Assembly (NCBI GenBank): GCA_017615835.1
Contig: JAFZZI010000005.1
Coordinates: forward strand, 45,832 to 109,831
Direction: 5' to 3'
DNA from: Bacteroidaceae bacterium
GTDB lineage: Bacteria > Bacteroidota > Bacteroidia > Bacteroidales > Bacteroidaceae
DNA length: 64,000 bases
The notes under the pieces are model-generated. The model searched no databases and was not told where the DNA came from. It worked only from the letters and a program-made list of their open reading frames with translations. This document shows, one piece after another, positions 25,206 to 63,233 of this stretch. The position numbers and the translations under genes were made by a program. The stretch's first letter is position 1. Each line of letters starts with the position of its first letter.

Positions 25206-25242
25206 TGCAATTTCATCATTACGTGAACAAAAATCAAGGGCA
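25206..25242 (-). promoter_or_regulatory. Late promoter 1 (holin)
   Basis: TGCCCTTGA (reverse strand, 25242-25234), a 19-bp spacer, GAAATTGCA (25214-25206), about 20 bases before the holin start. The -7 box differs from the consensus at its first base. Confidence 0.6.
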
Positions 25243-25254
25243 CGGAGAAAAGCG

Positions 25255-26427
25255 CTATCCTTCCAACGCCAATGTGACGGTGAAATCCACGTGTGGCATC
25301 TGCTGTTTTGTCTTATCATAGATGTTGATGTTCTTCTTTGCCGGTTCCACGATGACAGGGACATAAGATGCGGCCGCCTGGCCGGGCCCTTTGTACTTCA
25401 TCCACCAACGCTTGCGCTTGCCGCCCAGGAACTCCATCGTCCACCATTCCGCCCATTCCCTTGTGACATAACCGCTCGACATCTGCCATGACCGCCGGCC
25501 GTCGTTACCTATGGCCATCAGTGAGCGCGATGGCTGGAACGTCGGCCTCTCAACACGGGCGTAACTCTTCATATCCACGTTTATGTTCATCGCTTCCTTT
25601 GTCATTCCGCTACAGGTCTCTATGGCTCCCCTGCGGTTCAGGAATAGAAAGTCAACATAATCCTGATTATCGCGCAGCACGATAGGAGAATGGTCTCCCG
25701 TATAATCATCCTGCCCTTGTCCATTATTAAAGGTTGCCGGATAGAACACACTTTTCGTTCCGTTGCCGTTTACATCTACCCACGAGGTGATGCTGTCCCG
25801 TCCCACCTTCTCCGGTGATTCCGTAGGCTTGGTGGAAGCGTCGCCATTGCGGGTGTTGGTGTTCTCCAACGAAGAAACATCACGATTGGCATTGTCGGTT
25901 ATCAGTGACCGTTCCCATTCCGTCAGTCCGCCGATCATGCACTGACCGCCTGGTATATCTGTATTTCCGTCCGCATCCTCGCATTGTGTTTTGACATACT
26001 CATTGTCCGTGCTATCCAGGTATTCAGTGTAGATACGGAGAAAGTAACTGCGGTACATGCGCACACCGTCTATATAGGTCGGCTGGTTGGTGCCGGGTGT
26101 AAAGCTGCTGTCGGCTGCTGTAGATGCTGCCGCTTTCTTTGCCTCGTCCACCTCAGTGTTGAAGTCAAAATTGCTCCATATCGTCTTGAGTGCTGATGAG
26201 ATATCAAAGTGTGCCTCGGTCTGTCCGCCTGTGTCCTCGCAAAAATCCCCAACGACATTATTGTTATATACCACCTCTACGCGGACAATGGTAAACGGGC
26301 TGGTTACGGCCTCACCTGGCCTACTCCACTCCAGCCCGCTGATGTCTATCACCACAGGCGAGTCGGCGAAGTAGGTATGCACCTGCCCGTTTATCTCTCC
26401 GAACATTCCTGATACAGATACTGCCAT
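25255..26427 (-). CDS. Phage virion (tail-associated) protein, 390 aa
   Basis: A beta-rich, aromatic-rich protein (VSVSGMFGEINGQVHTYF at the start; SWQMSSGYVTREWAEWWTMEF near the C-terminus). It has no signal peptide or membrane segment. It is preceded by a late promoter and lies next to the large tail protein on the same strand, so a virion or tail-tip role is likely. No family recognised. Confidence 0.65.
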   Translation of the reverse strand: MAVSVSGMFGEINGQVHTYFADSPVVIDISGLEWSRPGEAVTSPFTIVRVEVVYNNNVVGDFCEDTGGQTEAHFDISSALKTIWSNFDFNTEVDEAKKAAASTAADSSFTPGTNQPTYIDGVRMYRSYFLRIYTEYLDSTDNEYVKTQCEDADGNTDIPGGQCMIGGLTEWERSLITDNANRDVSSLENTNTRNGDASTKPTESPEKVGRDSITSWVDVNGNGTKSVFYPATFNNGQGQDDYTGDHSPIVLRDNQDYVDFLFLNRRGAIETCSGMTKEAMNINVDMKSYARVERPTFQPSRSLMAIGNDGRRSWQMSSGYVTREWAEWWTMEFLGGKRKRWWMKYKGPGQAAASYVPVIVEPAKKNINIYDKTKQQMPHVDFTVTLALEG

Positions 26428-26438
26428 ATCTTTTTTGT

Positions 26439-26475
26439 GGCAAGATACGTGGCGGCAAGGCTGAAATCAAGGGCA
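26439..26475 (-). promoter_or_regulatory. Late promoter 2
   Basis: TGCCCTTGA (26475-26467), 19-bp spacer, TATCTTGCC (26447-26439) on the reverse strand, 11 bases before the start at 26427. Confidence 0.65.
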
Positions 26476-26549
26476 GTGCAGGAAACCGGCATAGTCCAAT
26501 GCAATAAATAACCATATTATTCCGTTCATATACAATAACTATAACAACA

Positions 26550-27404
26550 ATGAAAACAAGAACATCCTTCACTGTAAGCCGCCTAACATTGCTGGCACTT
26601 ACATATATGTTTACTCTTGCCTTCACCGCTTGCGTCGGTGATGATGATAGCGAGCCTACTATTGACGAGCTGCTGTCAGAAGAAACTACGCCGATCGACT
26701 TTGAGTTTGATGATTTTGAATATCTTGATAGATACTTTCTTTTCGACTATGCAGGTAACAAATACATTGGCTCCGACACCTTAACGACATCAAAGTGTAC
26801 GCTTGAACTCCGACAGGGAAAGCATCATCTAATCTGGATGAAGGGGCGATATGGCAGTGATGTTGGTTTTATCCCTCAAAACAGAACATTTTCTGGTTAC
26901 ACTTCTAATATAAATGTAACTTATACAGAAATGGACATAGAAGTTTCTCCCTATTTGATGCCGGTTAGAAAGGTTACGCTTCAGAATAAAAATCAAATCG
27001 AAGGAAATACCAGTTTAACCGTAATGGTTACAGATATAGATAAAATAGATATAAAGGCAAGTAAGGAAATAAAAGTAACAGGTTTTCCTTTTATGAATAA
27101 CATATCTTTAGATGGAAATAATTATGAGATAGAAAAGGAGATATATACTAATTGGGTGCATTTTATGTCTGGTAAAGAAGATATTGTCGGGATATATCTT
27201 TACACCCTCTGCCCGACCAACATAATTGAAGATATACAACTGAAAGTTGAAGTGCAGGATGCTAAGGGTAAGCCCATTCCAACCACTACCCTTCCAAGAA
27301 TTTCTCTTCAACGTGGTTGCATAACAGATTTACGCGGTCCACTTTTCTCTGGTAATACATCTGACTGGACGGTGACGATGGAGCCGGATGAATACGAATA
27401 CTGA
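26550..27404 (+). CDS. Surface lipoprotein, fimbrial-accessory-like cargo gene
   Basis: A 284-residue protein with a lipoprotein signal peptide (hydrophobic LTLLALTYMFTLAF, lipobox FTAC, Cys28) followed at once by acidic VGDDDSE, which resembles the Bacteroidota signal for export to the cell surface. The rest is beta-rich and resembles fimbrillin/Mfa2-type accessory proteins (LRQGKHHLIWMKG), a weak match. It faces opposite to both neighbours, is A+T-rich in its second half, and lacks the late promoter motif: features of a lysogenic-conversion (moron) gene. Confidence 0.7.
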   Translation: MKTRTSFTVSRLTLLALTYMFTLAFTACVGDDDSEPTIDELLSEETTPIDFEFDDFEYLDRYFLFDYAGNKYIGSDTLTTSKCTLELRQGKHHLIWMKGRYGSDVGFIPQNRTFSGYTSNINVTYTEMDIEVSPYLMPVRKVTLQNKNQIEGNTSLTVMVTDIDKIDIKASKEIKVTGFPFMNNISLDGNNYEIEKEIYTNWVHFMSGKEDIVGIYLYTLCPTNIIEDIQLKVEVQDAKGKPIPTTTLPRISLQRGCITDLRGPLFSGNTSDWTVTMEPDEYEY

Positions 27405-27406
27405 TT

Positions 27407-30586: not shown

Positions 30587-30623
30587 CGCAATATATGGCG
30601 CGGCAGCCCGATAATCAAGGGCG
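30587..30623 (-). promoter_or_regulatory. Late promoter 3
   Basis: CGCCCTTGA (30623-30615; first base deviates), 19-bp spacer, TATATTGCG (30595-30587) on the reverse strand. It decides the start of the large tail protein at 30568. Confidence 0.65.
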
Positions 30624-30646: not shown

Positions 30647-30683
30647 TGCCCTTGATTTCAGCCCCGCAGCTACGTATCTTGCG
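30647..30683 (+). promoter_or_regulatory. Late promoter 4
   Basis: TGCCCTTGA (30647-30655), 19-bp spacer, TATCTTGCG (30675-30683), 14 bases before the tail-fibre start. It is back to back with promoter 3, giving two divergent late promoters within 100 bases. Confidence 0.7.
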
Positions 30684-30697: not shown

Positions 30698-33600
30698 ATG
30701 GCACGCACATCCCCGGTCCACTACATAGCGCCTTCCGCTATTTCAATAACCCCCAATGCCAACAACTCCCATCGCGATCTGGCTGTCTATGTGACGGCGG
30801 GTGCAAAGATAAAAGTCCTCTGTCCGAGGGCTGGCATAGGGTATGCTGCCGACGGAACCTACCAGGAGTGGACGCTCAGCGGTCGTAACCGCCGGTTGGC
30901 GGATACTACGGGGGCAATGCCATATACCATCTATGCACGTCTAAACAAAACCGGCGGCAGGACAGGCTATCTGGTGTTCGTTAAGAAAACTCAGCACGGT
31001 AACGACTGGGTTGACGCGTATTCAAGCCTCACAAATGATACCGCCAACGGCTATAGTATACTCTATACGGATAACGGTGCCGAGGTTCGCGTAATTAGTC
31101 CTGACTACTATTACATCCGCCTTGGCGACGTATCAGTCGCAGATAATGGGCAGCGTACCGTGACGCTTGACACAGGCATCCTGGGCACTGACCAGTTTAA
31201 TGACGAATGGGCGCTAAACCCCGACCTTCTGCCGCTACGCATAGGGCTGGCCTGCGCTATCAATAACAAGGATGCAGGACCCACTCCTTATGTCTATTGG
31301 GGGCAGCAACTGGTGCTCTCCGCTACTCTCACTGAAGGATGGTCAGGCACTGATATCCAGCGCTTCGATCACTGGGAGATAACACGCAACTCGGGCGACC
31401 CCTCAGCCGATGACCTGTGGAGTCATCCCGCGGGCGCCAGCAGTTACCGGACACTGAGCAGCGATGGCCGGATTACGCTGAGTCATGCCCGTGGTGTTGG
31501 TGACGACTTCAACGGAGCCGTATCCTCTGTTTTTACGGTTATAGCGATGGGGCACGCTGAAAGTTCTGATTCTTCCAGCAGCTCTTCTTCCGGTGAGCCG
31601 GAACTTGTTACCCTCAAAGCCGCCACCATCAACATACACGCAGAGACGGTGGAGAAATATGAATTGGCGCTGTCGGCAAATATTGTAAGTTACAACCCGC
31701 AGACGCAAATCTATAACCCTGCCAACGTTACCGTCCGCATTCGCGCTATTGACCAGCGCGGCGATGTGTTCGAGTTGACTAAGGGGCAGTTTGATAATGC
31801 CGGACTTGCGGTTGAGTATGCCGCCGTCGAGGCTAGCGTAAGAATACCGCTGGTGTTCTCGGGTGCAAGCGACGACGTAGCCACAGCATCACTTGTCACC
31901 GCTACCGCCTTTGCTGCCCAGCAGAGCCTGAACATGCGCCTGGTACGCGTCACAGAAACTGACAGCAGCAGCGCAGGGGGAACTGAAGTGGTAGAATTGA
32001 TGCAGCAGACCATCGCCTTTGTCCGCGACGGCGAGGACTCCAAAGAACGTGAATGGATTTTCTATCGCAGCACCGAGGCCGTCACCTTTGGCGCAGGACA
32101 GGGACAGGTCGCACCGCCTGCTGCTATCAGCGGTGGTCAGGTGGATCCCACGGGTGCGGCTACAGGTGGTGATACCAATAAAGATCAGGACGGTTGGGTG
32201 CCGCAAGGTTGGTATGACGAAATGCAGGGTACTGATGCGGATAACCCATACGAATACGGCTCCTACCGCGACTATATTCATGAGAGCGATAGCAGTTCGT
32301 CAGACTCATCCAGCAGTGACAGCGGCGGACATTGGGGCCCGTTCTCCATGCCAAAGATATGGAGTCACTTTGCAAAGGACGGCCTCCCCGGACGCGGCAT
32401 CAAGACAAACACCGAACTCTACCAGGCCACCAACAGCAGCGCCTCACGCCAGGCGCCTACATCAGACAGTGGCTGGGATAGCGACCCGAACCTATCAAAT
32501 CTGACAAACAAGTGGACTGAGGCATACAAATATCTGTGGAACTGTGAGAAGATAATCTACACCAATGCTGACGGCACCGAGACCACCGAATACACCGTAC
32601 CTCGCGTCATTGCAATCTGGACGAAGGATGGTTTGCCGGGTAAGGGAATTGATAGTATCACCAACTACTACTGTATATCTAACGCATCCACAGGCATCAC
32701 CCGTCCTCAGACCGACGGTGCAAGCCCGTGGGATACCGACCCGATGGCGCCGACGAAGAATAAACCGTATCTGTGGAACTACGAGAAGATAGCATGGCTC
32801 AACTATGGCAGCGGACAGCAGTATACCTACACCGAACCTCACGTCATAGGGCACTTTGGAGGAGATGGCAGGGGCATATCAAGTCAGACCGAGTACTTTA
32901 AAGTTTCGTCAACACCTGACGCCCCAAGCACAAGTTCTCTAACCGAAAGTAATGGATGGTATACGATGAGTAATTCGGGGTGTCCTATACAGGGAAACAG
33001 AAACAACCCTTATTTATGGAGCTGTACCTATATTGAATACACAGACAACACCACCACTAAAGTAGTGCGACTAGTTAGTGTTTTTAACGTAGGTATCAAG
33101 CCTAACCTTCTTAGAGATACAGGATTCGTGTCAGAGGATAACATGAATGAATGGAGCTCAGGCGCAGATTATCGCGCCGGAGAGGTGATACCCGGAGCAG
33201 ACAACTCTTGGGGGTGCAAACCGCAGGAATCCAATAACGGCTATACAAATATGCTTCATCAGGTGGTGTACGATCCTTTAGGCAGGAGTTGCATAACCTC
33301 TGGTAAGTGGTATACATTATCATTCTTCAGCCGAACTCGAAGGTATGTCAACCAGACAAGCAACAAGAATACTCAAGGTTTCGGTTATGAAACCATCTAT
33401 CTCAGACCAGGTGAATATAAGTTGCAAATCAACGGCCGCGTATCATCTTCTGCTTATAATGCGGGAGTGATACTTAGGGCTAATATCTTTGGCCCACAGG
33501 TTAACGGCGAGGATACATGGACAATAAGCAAATCAATATCCTTAACCTCTAAGAAAGACGCCACAAGCGGCGAATCGGAGAAGCTGATTGTGGATTCTGC

Positions 33601-34960
33601 ACACGCGGGAGTTTATAAGATAGGATTTCAGGCGTATAAAAGTGATGGAGGTACAACTACGAATGATGTAACTATCAACTGGTGGAGATTAAGATGTCTT
33701 GATGATAATTCAAGCTTTAGCACTCATTTCTATCCATCTGTAATTGATACCGCGGTATATTATCAGGATGGCGTCAGAAAAACCGATGCTGAAACAAACG
33801 GAGATATTTTCTGGCCGTCAGATAACGATGTGTCTGATGATGATGGATGGACATTCCATTCCGTTGCATTCAAAATAAAGAGTTCTTTCTCGTCGGATAG
33901 CAAAGCTATATTATTTCGAGTACAAAAGACGTATCTCGAAATAAAATGCCCGAAGTTTGAAGAGAGCATCGTGCCGACCGAATGGATTCCCAATGAAAGC
34001 GATGTGGGTAACGAATGTGCGATTATTCCCGCTGGAACGTGGGTGTCAGGGGCGACATATTATTATTATGGTGGTGTAAGGAATGCTGTTCGCGTGAGTG
34101 GTTCTGACGGATGGTATATACTTAAGAGGAGAACGGGGAAGAGAGGGTTTACAAGCACTGTATCGCCCGCTTCTGATACACAAAACTGGCAAGCGAGCAC
34201 ATATATGAAGTTTATCGCTTGTGACGCGATGTTTGCGGAAGATGTGGTGGCAGATCGCATGAGAGTTGGCCGATTATCCTCGATCGGTAATAATGGTGTA
34301 GAGGTGAATATCGCCGATGGTATGCTCCAATTTAAAGGACTCAACTTTGTCAACATTCAACTTGGGTTGGATGATGACGGATGTGCTGTGTTGAAATTCT
34401 ACGACAAGAACGGAGTATTTCAGTATGACTTGGGGCCTAACGGAATCAATCAGAATGTCGACCAGCAGGATAACTATTTTCTCAATTATACACCTTTAGG
34501 AGCGCTGGCTGATGCAGCTTATAACAGGCAGGCTATATGGAATGTTCATCAAATCGCGCTTTCTTTTTGGTATCAGTTTGTTGAGGGTTACACCCAGACT
34601 GGTAACGTAAGGACTTATAACATCAGTGGCACTTCAACTCCGAGTTCAGTGAATGGCACCGTCTGCGACTCCAACTCCATTGCAGGTGCGGTACTCGATT
34701 GGATTGCAAGCCATCGTATGTCGCCGGGTTATTATGTTGGTCGTGAAATGCAGTTAGGAATCAATGATGGTATTTCTGGAGCGAACTACTATAGCCGAAG
34801 AGTTTATAGTGAGGTAGGCTTGGCTGCAAGTCCAGTAGCTATAGGCAACATCAGTTACATGATAGGTAATGATTCTAACTGGGCATTCTGTTATCAAGAT
34901 GGGTCACCTATGAATTTACAGGGTAAGGATTCTGTCCACGACTTCATAGAGTTGTATTAA
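30698..34960 (+). CDS. Phage tail fibre/receptor-binding protein, 1420 aa
   Basis: N-terminal 280 residues look like a virion-attachment part (GAKIKVLCPRAGIGYAADG). Two Ser/Asp-rich linkers (near residues 288-300, SSDSSSSSSSGEPE, and 528-545, SDSSSSDSSSSDSGG) separate it from three tandem repeats of about 75-80 residues (LPGRGIKTNTELYQ, LPGKGIDSITNYYC and RGISSQTEYFKV, each with a YLW-type core). The C-terminal part includes a knob-like region with GVEVNIADGMLQFKG. Likely the host-contact fibre. Beta-rich, no signal peptide. Confidence 0.7.
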   Translation: MARTSPVHYIAPSAISITPNANNSHRDLAVYVTAGAKIKVLCPRAGIGYAADGTYQEWTLSGRNRRLADTTGAMPYTIYARLNKTGGRTGYLVFVKKTQHGNDWVDAYSSLTNDTANGYSILYTDNGAEVRVISPDYYYIRLGDVSVADNGQRTVTLDTGILGTDQFNDEWALNPDLLPLRIGLACAINNKDAGPTPYVYWGQQLVLSATLTEGWSGTDIQRFDHWEITRNSGDPSADDLWSHPAGASSYRTLSSDGRITLSHARGVGDDFNGAVSSVFTVIAMGHAESSDSSSSSSSGEPELVTLKAATINIHAETVEKYELALSANIVSYNPQTQIYNPANVTVRIRAIDQRGDVFELTKGQFDNAGLAVEYAAVEASVRIPLVFSGASDDVATASLVTATAFAAQQSLNMRLVRVTETDSSSAGGTEVVELMQQTIAFVRDGEDSKEREWIFYRSTEAVTFGAGQGQVAPPAAISGGQVDPTGAATGGDTNKDQDGWVPQGWYDEMQGTDADNPYEYGSYRDYIHESDSSSSDSSSSDSGGHWGPFSMPKIWSHFAKDGLPGRGIKTNTELYQATNSSASRQAPTSDSGWDSDPNLSNLTNKWTEAYKYLWNCEKIIYTNADGTETTEYTVPRVIAIWTKDGLPGKGIDSITNYYCISNASTGITRPQTDGASPWDTDPMAPTKNKPYLWNYEKIAWLNYGSGQQYTYTEPHVIGHFGGDGRGISSQTEYFKVSSTPDAPSTSSLTESNGWYTMSNSGCPIQGNRNNPYLWSCTYIEYTDNTTTKVVRLVSVFNVGIKPNLLRDTGFVSEDNMNEWSSGADYRAGEVIPGADNSWGCKPQESNNGYTNMLHQVVYDPLGRSCITSGKWYTLSFFSRTRRYVNQTSNKNTQGFGYETIYLRPGEYKLQINGRVSSSAYNAGVILRANIFGPQVNGEDTWTISKSISLTSKKDATSGESEKLIVDSAHAGVYKIGFQAYKSDGGTTTNDVTINWWRLRCLDDNSSFSTHFYPSVIDTAVYYQDGVRKTDAETNGDIFWPSDNDVSDDDGWTFHSVAFKIKSSFSSDSKAILFRVQKTYLEIKCPKFEESIVPTEWIPNESDVGNECAIIPAGTWVSGATYYYYGGVRNAVRVSGSDGWYILKRRTGKRGFTSTVSPASDTQNWQASTYMKFIACDAMFAEDVVADRMRVGRLSSIGNNGVEVNIADGMLQFKGLNFVNIQLGLDDDGCAVLKFYDKNGVFQYDLGPNGINQNVDQQDNYFLNYTPLGALADAAYNRQAIWNVHQIALSFWYQFVEGYTQTGNVRTYNISGTSTPSSVNGTVCDSNSIAGAVLDWIASHRMSPGYYVGREMQLGINDGISGANYYSRRVYSEVGLAASPVAIGNISYMIGNDSNWAFCYQDGSPMNLQGKDSVHDFIELY

Positions 34961-35076: not shown

Positions 35077-35113
35077 TGCCCTTGACGATGACCCGGTCAC
35101 AATATATATTGCA
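35077..35113 (+). promoter_or_regulatory. Late promoter 5
   Basis: TGCCCTTGA (35077-35085), 19-bp spacer, TATATTGCA (35105-35113), 32 bases before the start at 35146. The rest of the gap 34961-35145 holds no gene I can support. Confidence 0.7.
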
Positions 35114-35145: not shown

Positions 35146-35496
35146 ATGGCTATTTATAAAGGAACAGAGGTCAAATTCGGCATTGACCTGACAGCACCGG
35201 GGTTCAATATGGACACCGATGATTTTGAAATCAGCATCGTCTCTGGACACACAACCATCAAAGGTATAAAGGGCAATCCTGATGCGGCAAGTAAAATCCG
35301 TATCTTCAGTGAGTCCTCTGACTCGTCCTCGTCCGGCGAATCTGGCACGAATTGGTATGCTATTGCTGAGACGGACACACTTGATACTGGCCATCTCAAG
35401 GTGATAGCAAAGGCCCATATCCCTGATGCCAACGCTGCAGATGGAGTCCGTACCGAGGTAGCGGTTGCCGAACTCGGCATCCTCTCTAATCCATAA
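35146..35496 (+). CDS. Virion-associated protein with Ser/Asp linker
   Basis: A 116-residue beta-rich protein. Residues about 60-70 read ESSDSSSSGESG, like linkers in the tail fibre and capsid genes. It starts the rightward late operon after promoter 5. No family recognised. Confidence 0.65.
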   Translation: MAIYKGTEVKFGIDLTAPGFNMDTDDFEISIVSGHTTIKGIKGNPDAASKIRIFSESSDSSSSGESGTNWYAIAETDTLDTGHLKVIAKAHIPDANAADGVRTEVAVAELGILSNP

Positions 35497-35779: not shown

Positions 35780-35923
35780 GGATAGAAAAAGTCCCCGGCC
35801 TCTGCACGTAAAGCTCTCTTACCTTCTTTAACGCTACCCGCCACTGGCGAAAAGGCCGGGGACTATATGGTCTCCCGTTCTATCCAGTGACGGGTTTCTT
35901 ATTTTATGGCGTGAAGGTAAGAG
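35780..35923. other. Two mutually exclusive inverted-repeat structures
   Basis: Structure 1: outer stem GGATAGAA (35780-35787) with TTCTATCC (35878-35885), inner stem GTCCCCGGCCT (35791-35801) with AGGCCGGGGAC (35853-35863). Structure 2: CTCTTACCTTC (35816-35826) with GAAGGTAAGAG (35913-35923), and ACCCGCCACTGG (35836-35847) with CCAGTGACGGGT (35884-35895; one mismatch, or a G-U on the reverse strand). The two sets cross, so only one can form at a time. No U-run follows. Confidence 0.55.
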
Positions 35924-35958
35924 GCTGCAAAGATGCAAACTATTTTATTTCTATAACT

Positions 35959-36189
35959 ATGTTACGTGCAGATTTAATTGAATTTAACAAGGAATTATTT
36001 CAAAAGTTGAAGCAGGCGGGTATCAAACTTGAAGATTACAAATATTGCGACCTATACCGCGACTATGTAGAGATGTCGCGCGAAGAACCTAACAGAAAGG
36101 TTGTGATGTTGACGTTGGCGCAACGATACGGCATCACTGACAGGCAGGTATATAACATTATCAACCATATGAAATCGCCTGTAGGATAA
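35959..36189 (+). CDS. Small DNA-binding-type protein (helix-turn-helix)
   Basis: A 76-residue protein from ATG 35959 (MLRADLIEFNKELFQKL); the upstream open frame overlaps the paired structures and is not used. The second half, LAQRYGITDRQVYNIINHM, is a helix-turn-helix. Position at the head of a late block, after the crossing inverted repeats, suggests a regulator or small terminase-like protein. Confidence 0.6.
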   Translation: MLRADLIEFNKELFQKLKQAGIKLEDYKYCDLYRDYVEMSREEPNRKVVMLTLAQRYGITDRQVYNIINHMKSPVG

Positions 36190-39842: not shown

Positions 39843-39879
39843 TGCCCTTGATTCAGGTACTCTCTAAGAGTATTTTGCA
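39843..39879 (+). promoter_or_regulatory. Late promoter 6
   Basis: TGCCCTTGA (39843-39851), 19-bp spacer, TATTTTGCA (39871-39879), 11 bases before the start at 39891. Confidence 0.7.
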
Positions 39880-46323: not shown

Positions 46324-46360
46324 TGCAATTTGCAATATGACGGCCTTAAAATCAAGGGCA
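46324..46360 (-). promoter_or_regulatory. Late promoter 8
   Basis: TGCCCTTGA (46360-46352), 19-bp spacer, CAAATTGCA (46332-46324; first base deviates) on the reverse strand; 18 bases before the 46305 start. Confidence 0.65.
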
Positions 46361-46368: not shown

Positions 46369-46405
46369 TGCCCTTGATTTATGGGCTGTCACAAAGTATA
46401 TTGCA
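46369..46405 (+). promoter_or_regulatory. Late promoter 9 (DGR operon)
   Basis: TGCCCTTGA (46369-46377), 19-bp spacer, TATATTGCA (46397-46405). It is divergent from promoter 8 with motif ends eight bases apart, and heads the operon that runs through the variable protein and the reverse transcriptase. Confidence 0.75.
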
Positions 46406-50433: not shown

Positions 50434-50556
50434 GCACGAACCGTTGGTTTGCTCAGAGGTACAACGCTAACAATGCCTGGAATTTCAACGGCAACAACGG
50501 CAACCTCAACAACAACAACGTGAACAACGCGAATCTCTCGCAGGCGGTGGCGAATT
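50434..50556 (+). repeat. DGR template repeat (TR)
   Basis: 123 bp aligned without gaps to the VR. It carries runs of AAC codons (from 50487 especially), so changing its adenines during cDNA synthesis changes residues at set positions and avoids stop codons. It sits between avd (ends 50383) and the RT start (50586). In the VR frame it is open into the RT frame with no stop from 50409 onward. Confidence 0.92.
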
Positions 50557-50585
50557 TGCTTAGCGAAACCAATATACAGACGACA

Positions 50586-53733: not shown

Positions 53734-54688
53734 TACCGGTCTCTTTGTTCAACTTGTTCTCTATTTCCCTTTTTACTATCGCCGCCCGCTGCTGCCAGTC
53801 GCCGATATGTTCATTGTCGTTCAGACAGACTATGCCTGCCTGCGGGTCGCGGATGATGGCGCCAAGGTTCGCTGTCGGCGTGTTCTGGTCAGTATAGTGT
53901 CTTGTCGGCCTGTATGCCACATATAACCCGGCAAACTGCTGATATAACAGGTAAATCCAGTTGTTGGCCGAATGGTCGGTACGTCCCAGCGGTGACAGAT
54001 ACCTGCTGATTTCCTCTCCATGCCTTCTCCATACCTCTTCGCAGCTGCTCTTCAGAATGGCCGAAAAGATATGTCCCGTGTCAGGATATGTCTTCGTGAA
54101 GTGTTTCCCGAACGGCTTGCCTATCATATTCTGCTGCCACATACACTTCTTCTGGAAAGTGTTCGGGCTTGTCGGGTATGTCCTGTCTTTAATTATCTGA
54201 CACGGCAGAGGCGTGCCGCCCGGTCCTTCCGGACGGAAGAAGTCACTCGGCTCCAGCGGTGACAGCGGGAACATGTCGTCATTGGCGTAGATGAAACAGT
54301 CCGACAATCCAGGTATCCTGTGCAGGAACATCTCGATACATGGTGATGCAAAACAAGGCAGGTGCTCGGCGGGGATGAAATCACGATGGAAGACGATACG
54401 TATTTTCATACCGTCCTCACCCTTTCCGTCAAGAGATGATTTAAGGAGGGACTGTATATCCTTCATCCACGGCTGCACCTGTGACTCCCTTGCAAGAAGT
54501 ATATGAATTTGGCGTATCCACGGCATATACTTCATGCAGCACCTCACCAGCAACTCTTCTGTGCCCCACGAGCGGAAGCGGACATTGTTCATTGTCTGTC
54601 CGCTGCCATGATAACGCTCGTAATCCCTCTGCCACTCCGGATCTTGCGGAAACACCATCGGGACGACAAGGTCAATAGTTCTCTCCAT
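53714..54688 (-). CDS. Stealth-type sugar-phosphate transferase
   Basis: A 324-residue protein. Conserved-region-like parts: VRFRSWGTEELLVRCC, MPWIRQIHILLA, then CFIYANDDMFPLSPLEPSD (the NDD of Stealth CR2) and a His-rich GRTDHSANNWIYLL. Stealth proteins transfer hexose-1-phosphate onto surface polysaccharides. It overlaps the tape-measure stop by 17 bases, so it is expressed with tail genes. Annotated by motif only. Confidence 0.7.
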   Translation of the reverse strand: MERTIDLVVPMVFPQDPEWQRDYERYHGSGQTMNNVRFRSWGTEELLVRCCMKYMPWIRQIHILLARESQVQPWMKDIQSLLKSSLDGKGEDGMKIRIVFHRDFIPAEHLPCFASPCIEMFLHRIPGLSDCFIYANDDMFPLSPLEPSDFFRPEGPGGTPLPCQIIKDRTYPTSPNTFQKKCMWQQNMIGKPFGKHFTKTYPDTGHIFSAILKSSCEEVWRRHGEEISRYLSPLGRTDHSANNWIYLLYQQFAGLYVAYRPTRHYTDQNTPTANLGAIIRDPQAGIVCLNDNEHIGDWQQRAAIVKREIENKLNKETGNEIQKL

Positions 54689-57600
54689 ATCTCGTCACTG
54701 TTTTCTTGCCGGTATCGTAACTGTCAACCAGTCCGCCCTTCCCGTACACGCTGAACACACCCTTGATGCCGTCGGTCAGCGCACGTTCCAGCAGGTCACT
54801 CTGACGGTCGATGCTCTGCTGCAGCGAGGCGGCCATCTCCATGCTCATGCCGCCGTCCATCGTGCTGTCGGTCATCACATCGAAGTCGTCGATATTACCC
54901 TCGGCATAGGCGCGGACTCCACGGCCTCGGCGCATGCTGCGGCGCAGGGCGGGCATGCCGCCGTTGTAGAGCGTCTGGATGGAACGCCATATCTCGGGCT
55001 CGTTCATCTGTATGTTACGGGTGGTCTTGGCGTCGATGATGGCCTCACGCCCTGCCTCACCCACCAGATGAAACTCAGGACCGCTGGTGATGTGTGTCCG
55101 CGGGTTCCGGCCTGTGTACTTGGCGCGGTATGTTTTGCCGTCCGCCGCGTCCACGTTATACTGGCGGCCCGGCGTCAGCGAACCCGGTTCAGTGAACTCG
55201 TTCACGTTGCCTTCGGCGTAGGTCAGCATGCCGGTAGAGAGACGCCCGGCGCTGGCGCTGCTGGCGCCGGTAACCTGCGCCACCTCTGCCTTACCCTTGG
55301 CCAGCTTACTCGTGGCTACGCCGATAGCAGCACCCAAAAGGGCACTCAATACAGCAAAGATGGCAGTACCGGCAATTGGGTTTATATTTAAACACTGTGC
55401 CAGAATTTCGGGCAGGGATACAAGGGTTTCTGTTTCTGACTTGAACATCTTAGCCTGCATCATAGCGATGGCACTTTGTCCTGCAGCCTGCAGGGCTATC
55501 ATGCTAAACTTTTGTTCTGCCGACAGATTGTCGTTCGTCACAGCCTGATAAGCCGCGCCATAGAGGTTCGCGGCCGACATCATGGCAGCGTACATGTTCT
55601 TCGAGCTCTGCGACATCTGCTTATCCGTCTCTATGGATATTCTGCCTTCCTTCCTCTTGTTGGCGATCTTGGCATCGGTAACCTTGGTATTGGCGTCTAT
55701 CTCCTTCTGGATGGCAATATCCATCTCATCATCCACAACACTGCTTTCACTTGTGGGTAGTCCGCCTTCTTCGGCAGATGCGCCGCCCATCACGCCAGCC
55801 AGATTGTCGACGGCTCCCGTCAAGGTATTGAGAGCCGATGTATTAGCGTCGATAGCACTGTTCTGAAACATGGCGTTGAGCTGGTCTGTTATCGTGTCAT
55901 TCATCTTGGTATTGATGTCATCCCATACCTTTCTCCATGCCTCAGCGCGGGCGTTCTCCTGTTCTATCTCTAGTTGACGGTCCAGAGCCTGCCGTTCGTC
56001 AAGATACTCGTAGTGAGCCTTGGCGTCTTTGGTATCGGCGTTGTCGACGACCACGTAGGTGCCGGCGCCGGGACCTCCCTTGCCTGTCAGCTCCAGTTTG
56101 GCCAGTTCGTTGTAGTAGTCGGCCTGCCCTGCGTTGCCGGCTTCCATGATGCTCTGAACCGATGATGCCAACAGGTCACCCCACTCACGCAGTTTCTTGT
56201 AGAGTCGTGCCTGACTCTCCTCGGCTTTCTCGGCAAGAGAGTTCTGCAGTTCCATGATCTTTGTCTGCTCCTCGGCGTCACTCAGGGCGAGAGCGGTCTT
56301 GGCGTGCTTCACGTCAAGTCTCTTGATGGCAGCCTCTTCCATCTTACCTTGTTCCTCCAGCAGCTCAGCCTCCTTCTCCAGTTTGGCTATGTGGTCGGCG
56401 CCCTTTTTCTTTATCAGGTCATAGTAGGCCCGTTGCATGGCCAGCCGCACCTCCATCTGTTTGATGGCCAGCCGGTCTGCCACACGTTCTGATGCCTGTC
56501 CTGCGCCTATCAGGCTGTTGGCACGGCTCACACGTCCTTCCTCTAATCCCAGTTGACTGATGGTCTTGTCGAACACGCCCTTCATGCTCTGGCTCTGTCC
56601 GTCAGCGCCGGGGATGGTGGTATCGTTCCATACTATGTCTGCCTGCTTCTTTATCTGACTGGCCTCCTTCTTGATGGCATCCTGCACCTGGTCGTAGAAT
56701 GAATGGAGTGAGGCTATGACGGCCTGTATCTTCTGCTCGTCTATCTCTAGCGCTGCAGCCCAGTCTCCCAAGCCCTCCTCCTGCATCTTCTCCTTCAGTT
56801 GCTCCCATGATGTCGAGTAGGCGTTCTCGGCAGCGTTCAGCAGCAACAGCATACGTCCGATGCTCTGCTCGGCACGTTGACTCATGTCATCCTCCGGTTC
56901 CAGTCCCGCCTCGATAGCCTCCCGCCGGATGCGGTCGAAGTCGGCGAAAAGAATACCCATCGTGGATAGGTTGCTCTCCAGGTTCTCCGTCAGTCCATTG
57001 AAGGGCCGCTCTTGAGCGATGATGGCAGTGATAGCCTCCATCTGCTTCGATACGGCGTTCTGCTGTTTATAGAGGTCGGTGGCGATATCTTTCACAATCT
57101 TCGACATGATCTTATGGTACTCCACTTCGCTCTTGCCCTCCAGGATTTTCATCTTCTCTATCGACTTCTGGATGGTTTGCTCCACGAACTCCGCCGAGTC
57201 CTCGTCCTGCTCGGCCAGTATGTTATAGATGCGCTGGCGCTCCTCCTCGGCTATGTCGGCGCTCTTACCCTGATATATCTGCTGTAGCTCTATACGGTGT
57301 CTGCGCCACACGGTCTCGTTTTCTATCGTCAGCCGCTGCGCCTCCGCCTCGCTCAGTCCCTCCTCGGCCTGTGCCTGCTCTATGCGGGCCTTGCGTTCGG
57401 TATAGTAGGCGTCGAGTATATTCAGGTAGTTGTCAAACTCGTTCTGCAGCTGCTTCCGCCAGTTGCCGCCACTCTTCTTCGGGTCCAGCCAGTCACCCGT
57501 CGGTGTCAGGTGTTTGTTATAGAGGGCATCCTGAATCTTCAATCTCTCCGTGTTGTACCACTCGATAGCCTGCTCGGTGGTGGTGATGTTCTTACGTACG

Positions 57601-60600
57601 GCTTCGCTGATGAACTTGGCATCCTCCGAGAGCACGGCCTGCACGTCGGCACCGTTGGCCAGCGTCTTTACACGTTCCAGCATCTCCTTACGGCGGGCCA
57701 CCAGGTCGTTGCCGTTCCACTCCGAGTAGGGTGAGGTCACCTTGTCATAGTCGCCGTAGGGGTTGGTGCGGCCTGCGCCGCTGTCAGAACCCTGTTGCTT
57801 CTGTGCGGCGGTGATGATCTGCTTGCGCTGTGCTTCGCTGAGCTTTGAGTACATAAAGTTGACGGCGTTCTCCAGTGATGCCTCGTTGTCCTTGCCTATA
57901 AACTTGTCGGCATCCTTCAACTCCCCTTTGAACTTTGACAAGTTGGCTGTGATAATGTTGGCCTGCTGCGCCAGCGTGCCTATGACCTCAGACGACAACT
58001 TCTCGTTGCCTGTGAGCTCGCCAAGTGTGGCGGTGATGCGGCTGTAAGCGTCAGCATTCATCTTATCGGCATCAGCCACGCTGCTGGCATGCAGACCCTC
58101 TCTTACGCTACGGTTTTCAGACCGAATCTCCTCTATCTTCTCTTCCCTCTCGATGGTTTTCTTGGTCCAACTGTCGAACTTAGAGAAGGAATTTTCGAGG
58201 AAATTGTCAATCGTATTCTTGTAGGTCGACGTTCCATACGCGGTCGTATAGGTATACGAGCCAAGGTCTATCTCTTTGCCCTCTTTCTGCGCTTCTTCCA
58301 CCTCATTCTTGACAATGGTGGTATACATCTCTCTCAAGAACGGCCTCAGCTCCTCGTAACTGCTCTTCTTTATCTCCTTAGCGTTCAGCCCTTCTATCTG
58401 CGGAAGAACATAGACGGCATTACCCTGCTCATCAACGTCATACTTGATGCGGCCGCGTACCGTGTTCCATTGGTTGATGATGCGTCGCTGCATGTAGGCA
58501 GGCAGCACGTCAATCGCTTTTTTGCTCTTTGCTCCGGCTTTGTCGATATCCTCACCGGTCTCCTCGTCAATAGCCTCTATCTTCTTGTTCAGCCTCTTCT
58601 GTTCCAGCTCTTCCTTCAGGGCGTCCACTATCTGCTGGTGTGCCAGCGCCACCTGCTCGGCGGCAGTCTTCTCGTCGAGCATATAACCCAGATAGGTGCT
58701 GTATTTTGAGCTTATTTCCTTGATAAGCGACAGACGCTCATCATTGGCCGTATTGCTTTCGCCGGCGGCTTTCTTCAGGTCTTTCTCCGCTTGCTTCAGT
58801 TCTTCCTCCTTCTTGCTCAAACGGCCGGTAGCCTCGGCGCTCTCGTCGTTGCCGTCACGCAGCTCCTTCACCTCCTCACGCAGCTGCCTGGTCTGCGCCT
58901 CCAGTTCTTCCTGTTTCTTTCTTGCCTCGTCGGTTTTCTTGGTGGCCGCGGTGAATGAACTCATCAGGTTGTTCAGGTTACGCTCCGCCTCCGCCTCCTC
59001 GTTATCAAGTTCCGCCAACGTCTTGTCAAGTTCGCTGATCCTGGTTACGGCGTCTACGGCTCGTTTGCCCAGCACAAACACTGCGCTGACAATCGCCATG
59101 ATCCAGTTGGCCTTTGTGGCAGCATCCATACTTTTCCATGCGGTACGCCATGTGGCGGCGAGACGTAATGTCTGCATCCTCAGAGAATGGACACCGGCAA
59201 TGGCCGTCCGTAAGGGGTTAACAAGAAATTTCCATGCTGCCTCGCCAAATCCCACTTTGAATAATGCCCATGCGGTAATGACAGCGTGGATGGCTGATGA
59301 CCAACCGCCTTTACCTGTCAGCAAATCCACCACTTTACGTAGTCTGTCTATGATATCACCAAGCCACCTCTGTGTACGGTCGCTTACAAACGCTTCCTCT
59401 ACCTGATTCTTCAGTCTTTCCCACTTTGCGGCCGCGGTCTCGTTCATATTGTTATACTCGTTCATCAGGGCGGTGTTTTCCTTGTATGCCTTACCTGCTA
59501 TTCCGAGTTGCTTCTCCAGTGTGTCAACGTTCTGTGAGAGCAGTCCGAACACTATGCCGGCGCGGGCACCCTGCTGGTTGAGTTGCTTCATAACCTCTTT
59601 CATTGATGTGCTGCGACCCATCATGTTCTCCACGGCATCGGCGGCGGCCTCCATACCCTCCTCCGTGGTCATGTCGAAGCCCTTCACCGAGTCGTGCAGC
59701 GCCCGAAAGATGGCTATCATCTGTTCCATACCCGTCATCTCTTTCAGTTCCTTCTCGGTGATGCCGATGGCCTGCGCCACGGCAAAAGAATTGTTCCTGA
59801 TGGCCGGTATCATACGGCTGAGGGCTGTTGCCGACATCTCCACTCGGCCGCCTAGAGCATCCACCGTGGCTCCCAGTGCGGCTATCTGGTCGATGGAGAT
59901 GCCTGCCTGTGAACCCACGGCACCTACGCGGCTCACGAAGTCGGTGATAGGCCCGGCGGCGGCAGCCGAGTTGGCACGCAGGGCTATGATGGTCGAACCC
60001 ACGCGCTCCAGCGTGTTCTCCACGTCGCCTCCGTTCTTCTTCAGGTCGCCTGTGGCGTCGGCTATCTTCATCAGCGTTCGTGCTGCCTCCTGTCCCATCT
60101 CTGGCAGCGCCACCGTCAGTTTATTGGCTGCAATGGTGAATCCCTGTACCTGCTCCTGTGTCTTCAGACCGATAGAACCGGCGATCGAAGCCATCCCCAT
60201 CAGGTCGGTCAGAGCTGTTCTGGTGTCGAGTTTTGACAGGTTGTCGCTCAGCCGTCCCACCTCATTGGCGGTGAAGCCTGTGGTCTTACGCACCTCACCC
60301 ATCTTATCCGAGAGAGTCATCAGATCGGTAAAGCCAGCTCTTATTTTCTGCAAGGCGGCAGCCGCGCCAAAGTATAATGTTACATAGGTTTTCAGTCTAG
60401 ACCATGCCTTCTCGAATGCCGAGGCACTACCCTTGCTATCCTTCTCCAGATCCTTCAGCGCCCTGTCTGCATTTTTTGTCGAAGCGGCCATCTCTTCCAT
60501 CTGCTGCGATGTTCTCTTGATGGACTTTCGCAAACTGTCGGCCCATGCTGTTTTGCCGCTTGCCTCAGCCTCTCTCAGCAATCCCTGCATACGCTCCACG

Positions 60601-61952
60601 CGCTGTCCCATGGTATTCATCTCGGCGCGGGCGCGGCTGACGGCCTGTTTCAGTGTATCGACGCTCTTCACAGCTTTTGGGTTAGCCAGCACCTCTTGCA
60701 TGCGCTGGCTTGTAATACCGGCTCCTGACATCTCGGCCTTCACGCGAGCCAGTGCCTGCTGCAGCCTCTGATATTTGGCTGTACCCTTGTCGGTGGTAGC
60801 AAGGGATTGTTCAATAGCCTGCTGCGCCAGCCGCAGCTGCTGGGTGGTACCTGTAAATCCGCTGGTGCCTGCTGTTGATGACAACTTCAAGGCGTCGGCC
60901 AGGCTCATGGCCTCTCCGCGTGCTATCTTCTCGCGCTCGGCATACTGTTGCAGGTATGCGTCACCCTGTTTTACCAGAGCGTTATACCTGTTCCATTCTG
61001 TTGTTCCCTCATGAAAGGCGTCACGCAGTTGTGTCATCTGCTGTACAGCCTGACGTATCTGGTCAACGCCGAAGTTACCCATGTTTCCGAGCACCTGCGT
61101 CGCGCTGGCTGCTTTTGCCTTACCCAGTTGGTCGGTAAGACTCTTGACGGCCCGCTCGGTGGCCTTGAAGTGACGGGCACCCTTACCTTCGGGGTCGGCG
61201 ATGACATTCTGGTACTGACGCAGCGTCTGTATCATTCTCTCCAGTTCGCCTTGGGTCTTCGTGACGTAGGTGCCGTTAAAAACCTGCTTCATGACGTCCT
61301 GTCCGGCCATACGTTGCCCTTCCGCCGCTATCTTGTTCAGCGCACCTTCTACGACATCCAACTGTGAGGTGTATTTTCTCCAGGCATTACTACCCTGTTC
61401 CTCCAGTGCTATCATCTGCTGCAGGTCACTCTTGGCCTTGGTGAGCGTGTCCTTGCTGGCTGTGCCTCCCTGTTTGATGGTGTCCACAAGACTGTTGGTG
61501 GCGGTGTTGCAACGCATGATGTTCTGGCTCAACGCCACTATCAGCGCATCCATCTCCTTCCATGTCTTGCTGCCTTCGGCACTGCGGCTCTTCTGCAACT
61601 GGGCGGCGTTAAGTGCTGTCTTGGAGAGGGCGGCGTTCATGTCCTCCACCGAGCCTTTGCCCTTGTTGAATATCTTGATGGCTTCATCCAGAGCGCGGAC
61701 GCCCTTCATGTTGTTGTTCAGCGCTGACTGCCACTGCTTTGCCTCCTTGGTGGCTGCAGTCAGCTCCTTCTCCAGTTTTTGGATGTCGGCTATAGGCATG
61801 TTGGTGCTGCGGGCCGTCTGCAGCTGCATACGCAGGCCCTCAACTTTCAGGCGGGCTCTCTCGGCTTCGCTCTGCAGGGCTTGCAGAGCTACATTGGCTT
61901 TACCGGCGTTAGCCTGAAAGTCAATATGGATGATATCATGTCTTGTTGCCAT
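54672..61952 (-). CDS. Tail tape measure protein, 2426 aa
   Basis: Largest gene of the window. Mostly long helices with heptad character and many Ala/Gln/Lys, a short membrane-like stretch near residues 2200-2235 (INPIAGTAIFAVLSALLG), and a short beta C-terminus. Tape measures set tail length at roughly 0.15 nm per residue (established), giving about 360 nm here, so a long-tailed siphovirus is inferred. Driven by late promoter 10 with the 61977 gene. Confidence 0.88.
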   Translation of the reverse strand: MATRHDIIHIDFQANAGKANVALQALQSEAERARLKVEGLRMQLQTARSTNMPIADIQKLEKELTAATKEAKQWQSALNNNMKGVRALDEAIKIFNKGKGSVEDMNAALSKTALNAAQLQKSRSAEGSKTWKEMDALIVALSQNIMRCNTATNSLVDTIKQGGTASKDTLTKAKSDLQQMIALEEQGSNAWRKYTSQLDVVEGALNKIAAEGQRMAGQDVMKQVFNGTYVTKTQGELERMIQTLRQYQNVIADPEGKGARHFKATERAVKSLTDQLGKAKAASATQVLGNMGNFGVDQIRQAVQQMTQLRDAFHEGTTEWNRYNALVKQGDAYLQQYAEREKIARGEAMSLADALKLSSTAGTSGFTGTTQQLRLAQQAIEQSLATTDKGTAKYQRLQQALARVKAEMSGAGITSQRMQEVLANPKAVKSVDTLKQAVSRARAEMNTMGQRVERMQGLLREAEASGKTAWADSLRKSIKRTSQQMEEMAASTKNADRALKDLEKDSKGSASAFEKAWSRLKTYVTLYFGAAAALQKIRAGFTDLMTLSDKMGEVRKTTGFTANEVGRLSDNLSKLDTRTALTDLMGMASIAGSIGLKTQEQVQGFTIAANKLTVALPEMGQEAARTLMKIADATGDLKKNGGDVENTLERVGSTIIALRANSAAAAGPITDFVSRVGAVGSQAGISIDQIAALGATVDALGGRVEMSATALSRMIPAIRNNSFAVAQAIGITEKELKEMTGMEQMIAIFRALHDSVKGFDMTTEEGMEAAADAVENMMGRSTSMKEVMKQLNQQGARAGIVFGLLSQNVDTLEKQLGIAGKAYKENTALMNEYNNMNETAAAKWERLKNQVEEAFVSDRTQRWLGDIIDRLRKVVDLLTGKGGWSSAIHAVITAWALFKVGFGEAAWKFLVNPLRTAIAGVHSLRMQTLRLAATWRTAWKSMDAATKANWIMAIVSAVFVLGKRAVDAVTRISELDKTLAELDNEEAEAERNLNNLMSSFTAATKKTDEARKKQEELEAQTRQLREEVKELRDGNDESAEATGRLSKKEEELKQAEKDLKKAAGESNTANDERLSLIKEISSKYSTYLGYMLDEKTAAEQVALAHQQIVDALKEELEQKRLNKKIEAIDEETGEDIDKAGAKSKKAIDVLPAYMQRRIINQWNTVRGRIKYDVDEQGNAVYVLPQIEGLNAKEIKKSSYEELRPFLREMYTTIVKNEVEEAQKEGKEIDLGSYTYTTAYGTSTYKNTIDNFLENSFSKFDSWTKKTIEREEKIEEIRSENRSVREGLHASSVADADKMNADAYSRITATLGELTGNEKLSSEVIGTLAQQANIITANLSKFKGELKDADKFIGKDNEASLENAVNFMYSKLSEAQRKQIITAAQKQQGSDSGAGRTNPYGDYDKVTSPYSEWNGNDLVARRKEMLERVKTLANGADVQAVLSEDAKFISEAVRKNITTTEQAIEWYNTERLKIQDALYNKHLTPTGDWLDPKKSGGNWRKQLQNEFDNYLNILDAYYTERKARIEQAQAEEGLSEAEAQRLTIENETVWRRHRIELQQIYQGKSADIAEEERQRIYNILAEQDEDSAEFVEQTIQKSIEKMKILEGKSEVEYHKIMSKIVKDIATDLYKQQNAVSKQMEAITAIIAQERPFNGLTENLESNLSTMGILFADFDRIRREAIEAGLEPEDDMSQRAEQSIGRMLLLLNAAENAYSTSWEQLKEKMQEEGLGDWAAALEIDEQKIQAVIASLHSFYDQVQDAIKKEASQIKKQADIVWNDTTIPGADGQSQSMKGVFDKTISQLGLEEGRVSRANSLIGAGQASERVADRLAIKQMEVRLAMQRAYYDLIKKKGADHIAKLEKEAELLEEQGKMEEAAIKRLDVKHAKTALALSDAEEQTKIMELQNSLAEKAEESQARLYKKLREWGDLLASSVQSIMEAGNAGQADYYNELAKLELTGKGGPGAGTYVVVDNADTKDAKAHYEYLDERQALDRQLEIEQENARAEAWRKVWDDINTKMNDTITDQLNAMFQNSAIDANTSALNTLTGAVDNLAGVMGGASAEEGGLPTSESSVVDDEMDIAIQKEIDANTKVTDAKIANKRKEGRISIETDKQMSQSSKNMYAAMMSAANLYGAAYQAVTNDNLSAEQKFSMIALQAAGQSAIAMMQAKMFKSETETLVSLPEILAQCLNINPIAGTAIFAVLSALLGAAIGVATSKLAKGKAEVAQVTGASSASAGRLSTGMLTYAEGNVNEFTEPGSLTPGRQYNVDAADGKTYRAKYTGRNPRTHITSGPEFHLVGEAGREAIIDAKTTRNIQMNEPEIWRSIQTLYNGGMPALRRSMRRGRGVRAYAEGNIDDFDVMTDSTMDGGMSMEMAASLQQSIDRQSDLLERALTDGIKGVFSVYGKGGLVDSYDTGKKTVTRYGENY

Positions 61953-61976
61953 ACCTTTTATGGTGATTTTTTATTG

Positions 61977-62516
61977 TTATTGTTTGGCACGTTCCAGACG
62001 CTGCGACCAGAAGAGTGCGCGGTTGATGGCTGCTGCCGCTGAGTTGTTGCGTCCCATGGCAAATACCAGGAATACGGTACCTACAAACGAGAACTGGCCG
62101 CGGGCCATAGACTCGAAGCGTGCGGCCTGGCGTCGCATCTCGGTGACCACGAACGGGCGGCCTTTCAGCGGACGGTCGCCCACGGGGATAGGCTGCCACT
62201 GCGCGCCAGGGATGGGCGGCACGGGTGAGGTGTACTTGTATCGGCGGCCGACAGCCAGCTCGATGTACTTCTCATAGTAGAGATAACGGGCGGAGAAGAC
62301 CTGCGCATCGCCGCCGCTGGCGGCAAACGTCTTCCATGCCAGAGAGCGCTTCAGCGCGCCGGTGTTCTTAATCTTCTGCCTGTCGACGTTGGCATAGACG
62401 TTACGCTTCGATATCTTCTCGAAGTTGTTGATCCACTCCACGATGCGTTCGTCCCTCCAGTCCCACTTGAAGGAAAGCATCTTATCGCCATACATGTCTG
62501 CTCCTATTCTTGCCAT
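61977..62516 (-). CDS. Tail protein, 179 aa
   Basis: A basic protein (WRDERIVEWINNFEKIS; QWQPIPVGDRPLKGRPF), with arginine-rich C-terminus. It lies just ahead of the tape measure and after late promoter 10, in the position of a tail-completion or tail-assembly protein. No family recognised. Confidence 0.6.
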   Translation of the reverse strand: MARIGADMYGDKMLSFKWDWRDERIVEWINNFEKISKRNVYANVDRQKIKNTGALKRSLAWKTFAASGGDAQVFSARYLYYEKYIELAVGRRYKYTSPVPPIPGAQWQPIPVGDRPLKGRPFVVTEMRRQAARFESMARGQFSFVGTVFLVFAMGRNNSAAAAINRALFWSQRLERAKQ

Positions 62517-62546
62517 ATATCTCTCTGAAATAGCATCGCCAAGTTG

Positions 62547-62583
62547 TCTGCAAAATACTCTCAGAAAACACCTGAATCAAGGG
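62547..62583 (-). promoter_or_regulatory. Late promoter 10 (tape measure and glycan operon)
   Basis: TGCCCTTGA (62583-62575), 19-bp spacer, TATTTTGCA (62555-62547) on the reverse strand, 30 bases before the 62516 start. Spacer ends GAGAG as in promoter 6. Confidence 0.7.
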
Positions 62584-62662
62584 CAGAGCAAGGCGAGAGA
62601 GGAGTGTGGTCAGACAGGTTTGACTCACGAGAGAGTGGGGAAAACAACAAGAGCCGCAGGTT

Positions 62663-63172
62663 TCAGTGCTTCTCCGCTTCATCCGTTGCCTGCATCAGGC
62701 GCACGGTCACTTCCGCCAGGCAGTGCTGCCAGCGGCGTTTAAGCTCACCTCCGTAACGGTCTATGACGTCTATACGTTTGTATAGCTCCGCTTCAAGCAG
62801 GGCTAGCGAACCGGGGCCTTGGACGGGCAGGTCGGGTTTCAGCAGTTCCTGTTCGGTGAAAGACACGAACCGCATGGTACGCAGCATCGCGCTGCGGTGT
62901 GCCTCGCGGATATGCTCTGCGAGTTGGCGGTAGTAGGCGGCGTCGCGGATGTCCGGTGTCTTGTCCTTATGTTTATGTGAACTAGCATCACTTGTCGCCT
63001 GAATCTTTGAGTTTGAAGCCATAAGCTCCAGCAGAGCGGCGGCGGCCTCTTCTGCATCGTCGGGCTCCGGCGTGAGCGGTGCGGGTGCGACGCCCTCAAT
63101 GCGTAACGGCTGCGGCATGGGTTGCGAACGCTGCGCCTTACGTCTGCAGTGAAATAACTTTCTGATTCCCAT
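62663..63172 (-). CDS. Virion-associated helical protein, 169 aa
   Basis: ATG 63172 (MGIRKLFHCRRKAQRS) is preferred; ATG 63181 adds three residues. The open frame reaching 63274 overlaps the promoter. The N-terminus is basic, the middle disordered and Ala/Glu-rich (EPDDAEEAAAALLELMA), the C-terminus helical. No family recognised. Rightmost phage gene. Confidence 0.65.
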   Translation of the reverse strand: MGIRKLFHCRRKAQRSQPMPQPLRIEGVAPAPLTPEPDDAEEAAAALLELMASNSKIQATSDASSHKHKDKTPDIRDAAYYRQLAEHIREAHRSAMLRTMRFVSFTEQELLKPDLPVQGPGSLALLEAELYKRIDVIDRYGGELKRRWQHCLAEVTVRLMQATDEAEKH

Positions 63173-63196
63173 AGTTGTCATACCCTTATGTTCAAG

Positions 63197-63233
63197 GGTA
63201 TAATACTGTAACATAAGAAGAATATCAAGGGCA
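63197..63233 (-). promoter_or_regulatory. Late promoter 11
   Basis: TGCCCTTGA (63233-63225), 19-bp spacer, TATTATACC (63205-63197; TTGC end not kept) on the reverse strand. It is the rightmost copy, about 30 bases left of the dnaB promoter. Confidence 0.55.

Follow-up and report, generated by a model that had tools for sequence, protein, structure and literature searches.

The window analysed here, a stretch of 64,000 nucleotides of Bacteroidaceae DNA, makes up the final 64 kb of contig C31 (109,831 bp) in a 32-contig genome. C31 is a phage contig, since it carries genes for a tape measure protein (54672-61952) and a head maturation protease (43037-44947). The capsid gene is probably the one at 41678-42985, assigned by its position, and a holin-like gene at 24697-25185 gave a Pfam match slightly below the cut-off. 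A two-part signal, the box TGCCCTTGA followed after 19 bp by TAnnTTGC, recurs in front of genes of the late region and is the subject of this report. Late refers here to gene content and position, and promoter function is assigned from the sequence.

We searched the window with the pattern TGCCCTTGA-N19-TANNTTGC, allowing up to three mismatches. This gave 12 matches, compared with a mean of 1.86 and a maximum of 5 in 100 dinucleotide shuffles. Eleven of the matches are the sites that a first-pass annotation of this DNA had listed, and all of these were recovered with at most two mismatches (seven exact, three with one mismatch and one with two). The twelfth, at 35935 on the minus strand, has three mismatches, was not in that annotation and is probably a chance match. 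The eleven putative late promoter sites are as follows.

25207-25242, minus strand: TGCCCTTGA-N19-GAAATTGC, preceding the holin-like gene 24697-25185
26440-26475, minus strand: exact, preceding gene 25255-26427
30588-30623, minus strand: variant CGCCCTTGA, preceding a gene with its ATG at 30568
30647-30682, plus strand: exact, preceding the tail protein gene 30698-34960 and divergent from the 30588 site
35077-35112, plus strand: exact, preceding gene 35146-35496
39843-39878, plus strand: exact, preceding gene 39891-40397
44964-44999, minus strand: exact, preceding the head maturation protease gene and then the probable capsid gene
46325-46360, minus strand: variant CAAATTGC, preceding gene 45010-46305
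46369-46404, plus strand: exact, preceding a short plus-strand open reading frame (ORF) with its ATG at about 46435, below the size included in the ORF list; divergent from the 46325 site
62550-62585, minus strand: exact, preceding gene 61977-62516, upstream of the tape measure gene
63198-63233, minus strand: variant TATTATAC, preceding a gene with its ATG at 63181

All eleven sites point to a start codon on the correct strand, with a gap of 12 to 33 nt from the end of TAnnTTGC. The -7 part differs in two of the eleven (GAAATTGC and CAAATTGC) and the first letter of the box in one (CGCCCTTGA). The first-pass annotation was thus right about strand and about placement before late-region genes; its minus-strand coordinates were off by 1 to 3 bases (its 62547 is 62550), and its start-codon distances of 11 to 32 needed correction. 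It had also seen no site in 1-24693, where we found none even at three mismatches.

Beyond the window, C31 holds three further sites, at C31:2525 (minus), C31:8665 (minus) and C31:15335 (plus). This brings the contig to 14 sites at up to two mismatches, all of them inside two late-classed stretches of about 55.8 kb, with no site at this threshold in the early-classed ~54 kb; the borders between early and late (C31:16500 and C31:70500) were chosen after the sites had been seen. With spacers of 14 to 25 bp admitted at up to three mismatches, 15 of 45 matches on C31 had 19 bp and every other length had at most five. All 13 matches with no more than one mismatch had the 19-bp spacer. A 19-bp match with three mismatches in the early region, at C31:45693, was judged to be chance, and C31:42997 is another weak match.

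Relatives of the phage were collected from IMG/VR. A capsid-protein scan found nine, several of them close to each other; the motif occurred in all nine records, with 71 matches against 7 for a reversed control, and a capsid profile scan added two more relatives. Scanning by the DNA pattern alone gave at least 120 loci. Among the 120 listed, 26 carry more than one site, and all 26 match at least seven reference proteins, the references being taken from C31 and the capsid-found relatives only. Twenty-one of these multi-site loci (18 contigs) fall outside the contigs of the first capsid scan. With a family locus defined by matches to at least two reference proteins at above 80 bits, 76 of the 94 listed single-site loci had no family-protein match and 18 had one; the 76 are what chance should give. 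An earlier test, whose references were in part pattern-found, had given family matches for all 26 multi-site loci and no homology for 74 of the 94 single-site loci; the figures above replace it. A search of 26 records, 24 of them viral and two of them metagenome-assembled genomes (MAGs), gave 8 to 16 matches in each of 12 large virus records and 4 in G040, compared with 0 to 2 per virus record for the reversed control. Five other large virus records (G039, G041, G048, G049 and G050) had one or two matches each, taken as chance, and no family proteins were found at their loci. Overall, the signal is present on about 30 phage contigs. The family to which it belongs, with contigs of up to 145 kb, would consist of phages of Bacteroidales with Prevotella-like hosts.

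The genes behind the sites were compared in a set of 17 contigs, made up of C31, six first relatives and ten added records (nine found by the pattern and G034 through the capsid profile; G051 is partial). Across this set we counted 160 sites, compared with 5 for the reversed pattern. A called ORF start lies within 150 bp of 121 of the 160 sites; 93 of these 121 have a downstream C31 homologue and 28 have none. In all 93 cases that homologue sits in the late region of C31. The commonest are the portal-like protein C31:686 (13 sites), the protease (13), the product of 45010-46305 (11) and C31:7488 (10).

The geometry of the signal is strict. The number of CCCTTGA boxes followed by TAnnTT was 115 at 19 bp, 6 at 18 bp, 2 at 20 bp and at most 4 at any other tested distance, while a reversed control gave no more than 2 at any distance; the spacer is indeed fixed, as had been claimed. 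Conservation was also said to extend to the left of the -33 TTG, and this holds as well. In 181 non-redundant sites, selected by CCCTTG together with an approximate TAnnTT, CCC is preceded by T (84%) and G (92%), TTG is followed by A (80%), and the box is kept among relatives. The -7 part of these sites reads TATATTGC, with an A-rich stretch that sets in 12 bases downstream of the point where TA begins. The box lacks palindromic symmetry. Its TTG begins 23 bases before TA, coinciding with a weak TTG peak of host promoter-like sites. Of 121 strict non-redundant sites, 57 end the -7 part in TTGC and 17 in TTTG, so that 104 depart from TTTG; the TAnnTT core belonged to the selection criteria, and its presence is built in.

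As described in two reports (PMC6847099, PMC2483708), the Bacteroidetes primary-sigma promoter consists of a -33 TTTG and a -7 TAnnTTTG. The phage sites share with it TA at -12/-11, TT at -8/-7 and a TTG in the -33 region; they differ from it in the conserved 9-bp TGCCCTTGA, in having one fixed spacing and in mostly lacking the final TTTG. According to PMC6847099, mapped promoters of Flavobacterium johnsoniae have six near-invariant -7 positions, the TTTG at the end among them, whereas their -33 motif can barely be seen. The phage sites reverse this pattern with their sharp upstream box and altered -7 end, a combination that would be expected of promoters needing help.

For a host comparison we took 400 kb of the genome with which C31 was binned, which may not be that of its true host. 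This sample contained 52 TAnnTTTG elements in 120 intergenic upstream regions. CCCTTG is absent from the -33 area of all 52, and the TTG peak at the corresponding distance is only weak (in 7 of the 52, TTG starts at -23 from TA). The whole of this genome outside C31, about 82% complete, gave 12 matches, each with two mismatches, against 5 for a whole-genome reversed control, and none with zero or one mismatch. The first-pass annotation had named many matches to host promoters or early phage genes as the outcome that would speak against a phage promoter class; the sampled host elements lack the box, and the early region has no match at up to two mismatches. The sites could still be plain strong host promoters, for which the host primary sigma alone would suffice and which TGCCC would merely strengthen. 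The TTG at the place of the weak host peak and the host-type TAnnTT core would fit this explanation. We nevertheless regard it as unlikely, given the absence of the box from the 52 host elements, the locked 19-bp spacing, the departure of the -7 end from TTTG in most strict sites and the position of the sites before late-region genes only.

We consider it quite probable that the eleven sites are late promoters of the phage family, served by host polymerase with its primary sigma factor and by a phage factor that reads the box. They would probably constitute a family-specific, late promoter class built on a Bacteroidetes-type core. Host RNA polymerase carrying the primary Bacteroidetes sigma would make basal contacts with TTG (-35 to -33) and TAnnTT (-12 to -7), in a predicted numbering that sets the T of TA at -12, at an element whose downstream end departs from the near-invariant TTTG. 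A phage factor made during infection would read the 9-bp box (-40 to -32), and the single fixed distance of the box would let this factor touch the polymerase. The structural and lysis operons would then be switched on together. A phage factor is favoured because the multi-site loci are confined to one phage family, as seen for all 26 among the loci listed.

Several features of C31 bear on which protein might read the box, here including genes for helix-turn-helix (HTH) proteins.

1100-1387, plus strand: Cro-like HTH gene, identified by eye, with a weak Sigma70_r4 score that is taken as a false lead
C31:45771-46565, minus strand: cI-like gene, by eye, forming with the Cro-like gene a divergent pair arranged as in a lysogeny switch
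About 35780-35935, minus strand: putative structured non-coding RNA, opposite the leader of the HTH gene at 35959
35959-36189, plus strand: small HTH protein gene, the candidate regulator of the first-pass annotation, judged unlikely to be a general late activator (predicted local distance difference test score, pLDDT, of the model 94.2)

A sigma factor would be expected to read a site of this shape, asymmetric, in two parts and fixed in spacing, and an alternative sigma factor, phage-encoded or co-opted and too diverged for a profile search, could in principle recognize both elements. This explanation appears distinctly unlikely. A late promoter dependent on a phage sigma factor would call for a phage-encoded region 2, and no Sigma70_r2 was found on C31 or six relatives at E values up to 1, a search that very diverged sigma factors could escape; the rest of C31's own genome gave ten Sigma70_r2 matches above the cut-off. 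Weak Sigma70_r4 matches (E 0.007-0.012) were obtained, but on C31 they fall inside the Cro-like ORF. Those of G022 and G023 occupy a matching place next to a primase-like gene, and in G029 a large ORF is covered. A host alternative sigma factor should moreover own host sites, whereas the genome outside C31 has no match at zero or one mismatch. The first-pass annotation had left open an activator or a sigma factor, both phage-encoded; a phage factor remains favoured, and a conventional sigma factor does not.

The same annotation had pointed to the HTH gene at 35959. That its product is the late activator, working like Mor or C of phage Mu, seems to us very improbable indeed. Among the 12 fuller contigs, no relative of this protein was found in G023, G038 and G043. 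The contigs of G038 and G043 appear to stop close to its position. G023 is 135 kb long and carries roughly a dozen sites, 12 being listed and one or more of them resembling chance matches. The recognition helix varies among relatives (RQVYNI, STVKRV, RHIHNI, TKAWDV) while the box stays constant. PHROG 836 matches the protein but also matches all 14 control genomes, and its name is therefore weak evidence. In at least four relatives, the gene itself lies downstream of a late-type TGCCCTTGA site (L095 at 3025, with L232 alike; L049, at G022:99582; L182; and L265, where the -7 part is weaker). Since this site reads through the structured stretch into the gene, the HTH gene looks late in those relatives.

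A second candidate was the tandem lambda-repressor-like HTH protein encoded at C31:18283-18795 (model pLDDT 92.2). It was attractive because an asymmetric box could be read by two HTH domains within a single chain. We rejected it, as no copy turned up in 9 of 27 records; six of these are fragments of less than 51 kb and three exceed 70 kb (G022, G040 and G051), and G022 still has normal sites. A HU-like protein (C31:16542-16991) is present in all 12 fuller relatives and is unlikely to act as a sequence reader. No Mor/C-like protein common to all relatives was found. Two 116-amino-acid proteins resemble the C-terminal domain of the RNA polymerase alpha subunit, L047:3171-3521 (minus) in G022 and L278:297-644 (minus) in G051, with Pfam E values of 6e-4 and 0.03, both below the cut-off. 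Among the contigs compared they occur only in these two, both without the tandem-HTH protein.

In another explanation, a phage repressor would use the box as its operator and silence late genes, and the box would not be an activator site. The cI-like and Cro-like genes and the overlap of the box with the -33 region are consistent with it. We hold it to be very unlikely, as the box has no palindromic symmetry, 7 of 12 fuller relatives yielded the cI-like protein, and the early region, the usual place of repressor targets, is without the box.

Some results weigh against late promoters dependent on a box-reading phage factor. In G027, all six sites read YTCCCTTGA, so the first two letters of the box are not fixed. 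No ORF start was called within 150 bp of 39 of the 160 sites, and just 80 of the remaining 121 sit 5 to 60 nt before one; the gene calls are crude. Both HTH candidates were found in only part of the family, the 35959 protein in 9 of 12 fuller contigs and the tandem one in 18 of 27 records. At up to two mismatches, the 400-kb host sample gave four matches against one in the control, which is near chance. With a slightly looser pattern, the MAGs G054 and G055 exceeded their controls, at 39 versus 22 and 78 versus 15. Both hold family contigs, which explains part of the excess. By eye, about 18 of the 78 matches keep both core parts, on few contigs that are possibly phages. Several TGCCCTTGAC-N19-TA...TTCG variants occur on contigs C75, C100 and C107 of G055, which possibly belong to another phage group with a related promoter.

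Among known phage systems, the sites resemble activator-dependent late promoters of the Mor/C, MotA and Ogr kind in lying before late operons only, as judged from the 93 sites with a C31 homologue and with the 28 lacking a homologue and the 39 lacking a nearby start set aside. T4 middle promoters have a MotA box near -30, which acts with AsiA. As in the sites described here, a phage box replaces or extends the -35 region at a fixed distance from a host-type -10 element; the hosts and the sequence are different. The middle and late promoters of Mu form a phage-wide set in which the host element is weakened and a box upstream overlaps the -35 region, all of which recur here. Mor and C bind two-fold symmetric sites, in contrast to the asymmetric TGCCCTTGA box, and no such protein was found to be shared by all relatives. 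A structure of Mor with polymerase is on record (9l0y).

The stretch beside the HTH gene, at about 35780-35935, is probably a structured non-coding RNA, judging from base-pairing patterns, and may be an undescribed pseudoknotted RNA. Fifteen such loci were collected, L095, L049, L107 and L265 among them, the fifteenth being nearly identical to one of the 14 examined. In all 14, crossing stems extend over about 150 nt after a host-type -7 element (TA in 12, CA in 2). From locus to locus the arms of these stems change in sequence yet remain complementary; several loci have a U-run after one arm. The best crossing-stem score lay above all 60 dinucleotide shuffles in 14 of 14 loci, some of which are close relatives and not independent, and greedy stem picking gave crossing stems in 13 of the 14. 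Rfam gave no match in the window, in the RNA stretch at E values up to 1 or in eight relatives at gathering thresholds. A tentative possibility, which we rate well short of an even chance, is that an undescribed phage protein of neither sigma nor Mor/C ancestry reads TGCCCTTGA and redirects polymerase to the weakened -7 element, with the pseudoknotted RNA joining the switch. If so, a whole family of large Bacteroidales phages would share a one-signal late regulon.

Bacteroidales are a main bacterial group in the gut and rumen, and their primary sigma factor is unusual. Among the titles and abstracts of open-licence papers listed in our searches, we found no description of a promoter signal that times late genes in Bacteroidales phages, nor of the TGCCCTTGA promoter. 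The signal predicts late transcription units from sequence alone and marks members of the C31 phage family in metagenomes, and the 36-bp site could serve as bait for isolating the regulator.

The portal-like protein had three weak INPHARED matches and matched no PLSDB plasmid. The protease had 104 INPHARED matches below 60% identity, 93 of them to Flavobacterium phages, and no match in INPHARED or PLSDB spanned 80% of either query. The capsid protein also occurs on genome contigs whose titles name Prevotella, Prevotellaceae or Bacteroidaceae; two of these contigs come from goat and sheep rumen. One more match among genomes, the fifth and a weak one, is in a Rhodobacteraceae MAG. The ends of C31 have no exact overlap of 16 or more bases. 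The C31 family may persist as phage-plasmids, because a ParA-like partition protein (C31:8879-9730, L021) occurs in all 12 fuller relatives, and antirestriction proteins (DarB-like, ArdC) and PcfJ/PcfK matches occur among the early proteins. A reverse transcriptase is encoded at 50520-51791 (plus) in the window, where a diversity-generating retroelement is possible, and a second reverse transcriptase match (RVT_1) was found among 73 mostly early proteins scanned.

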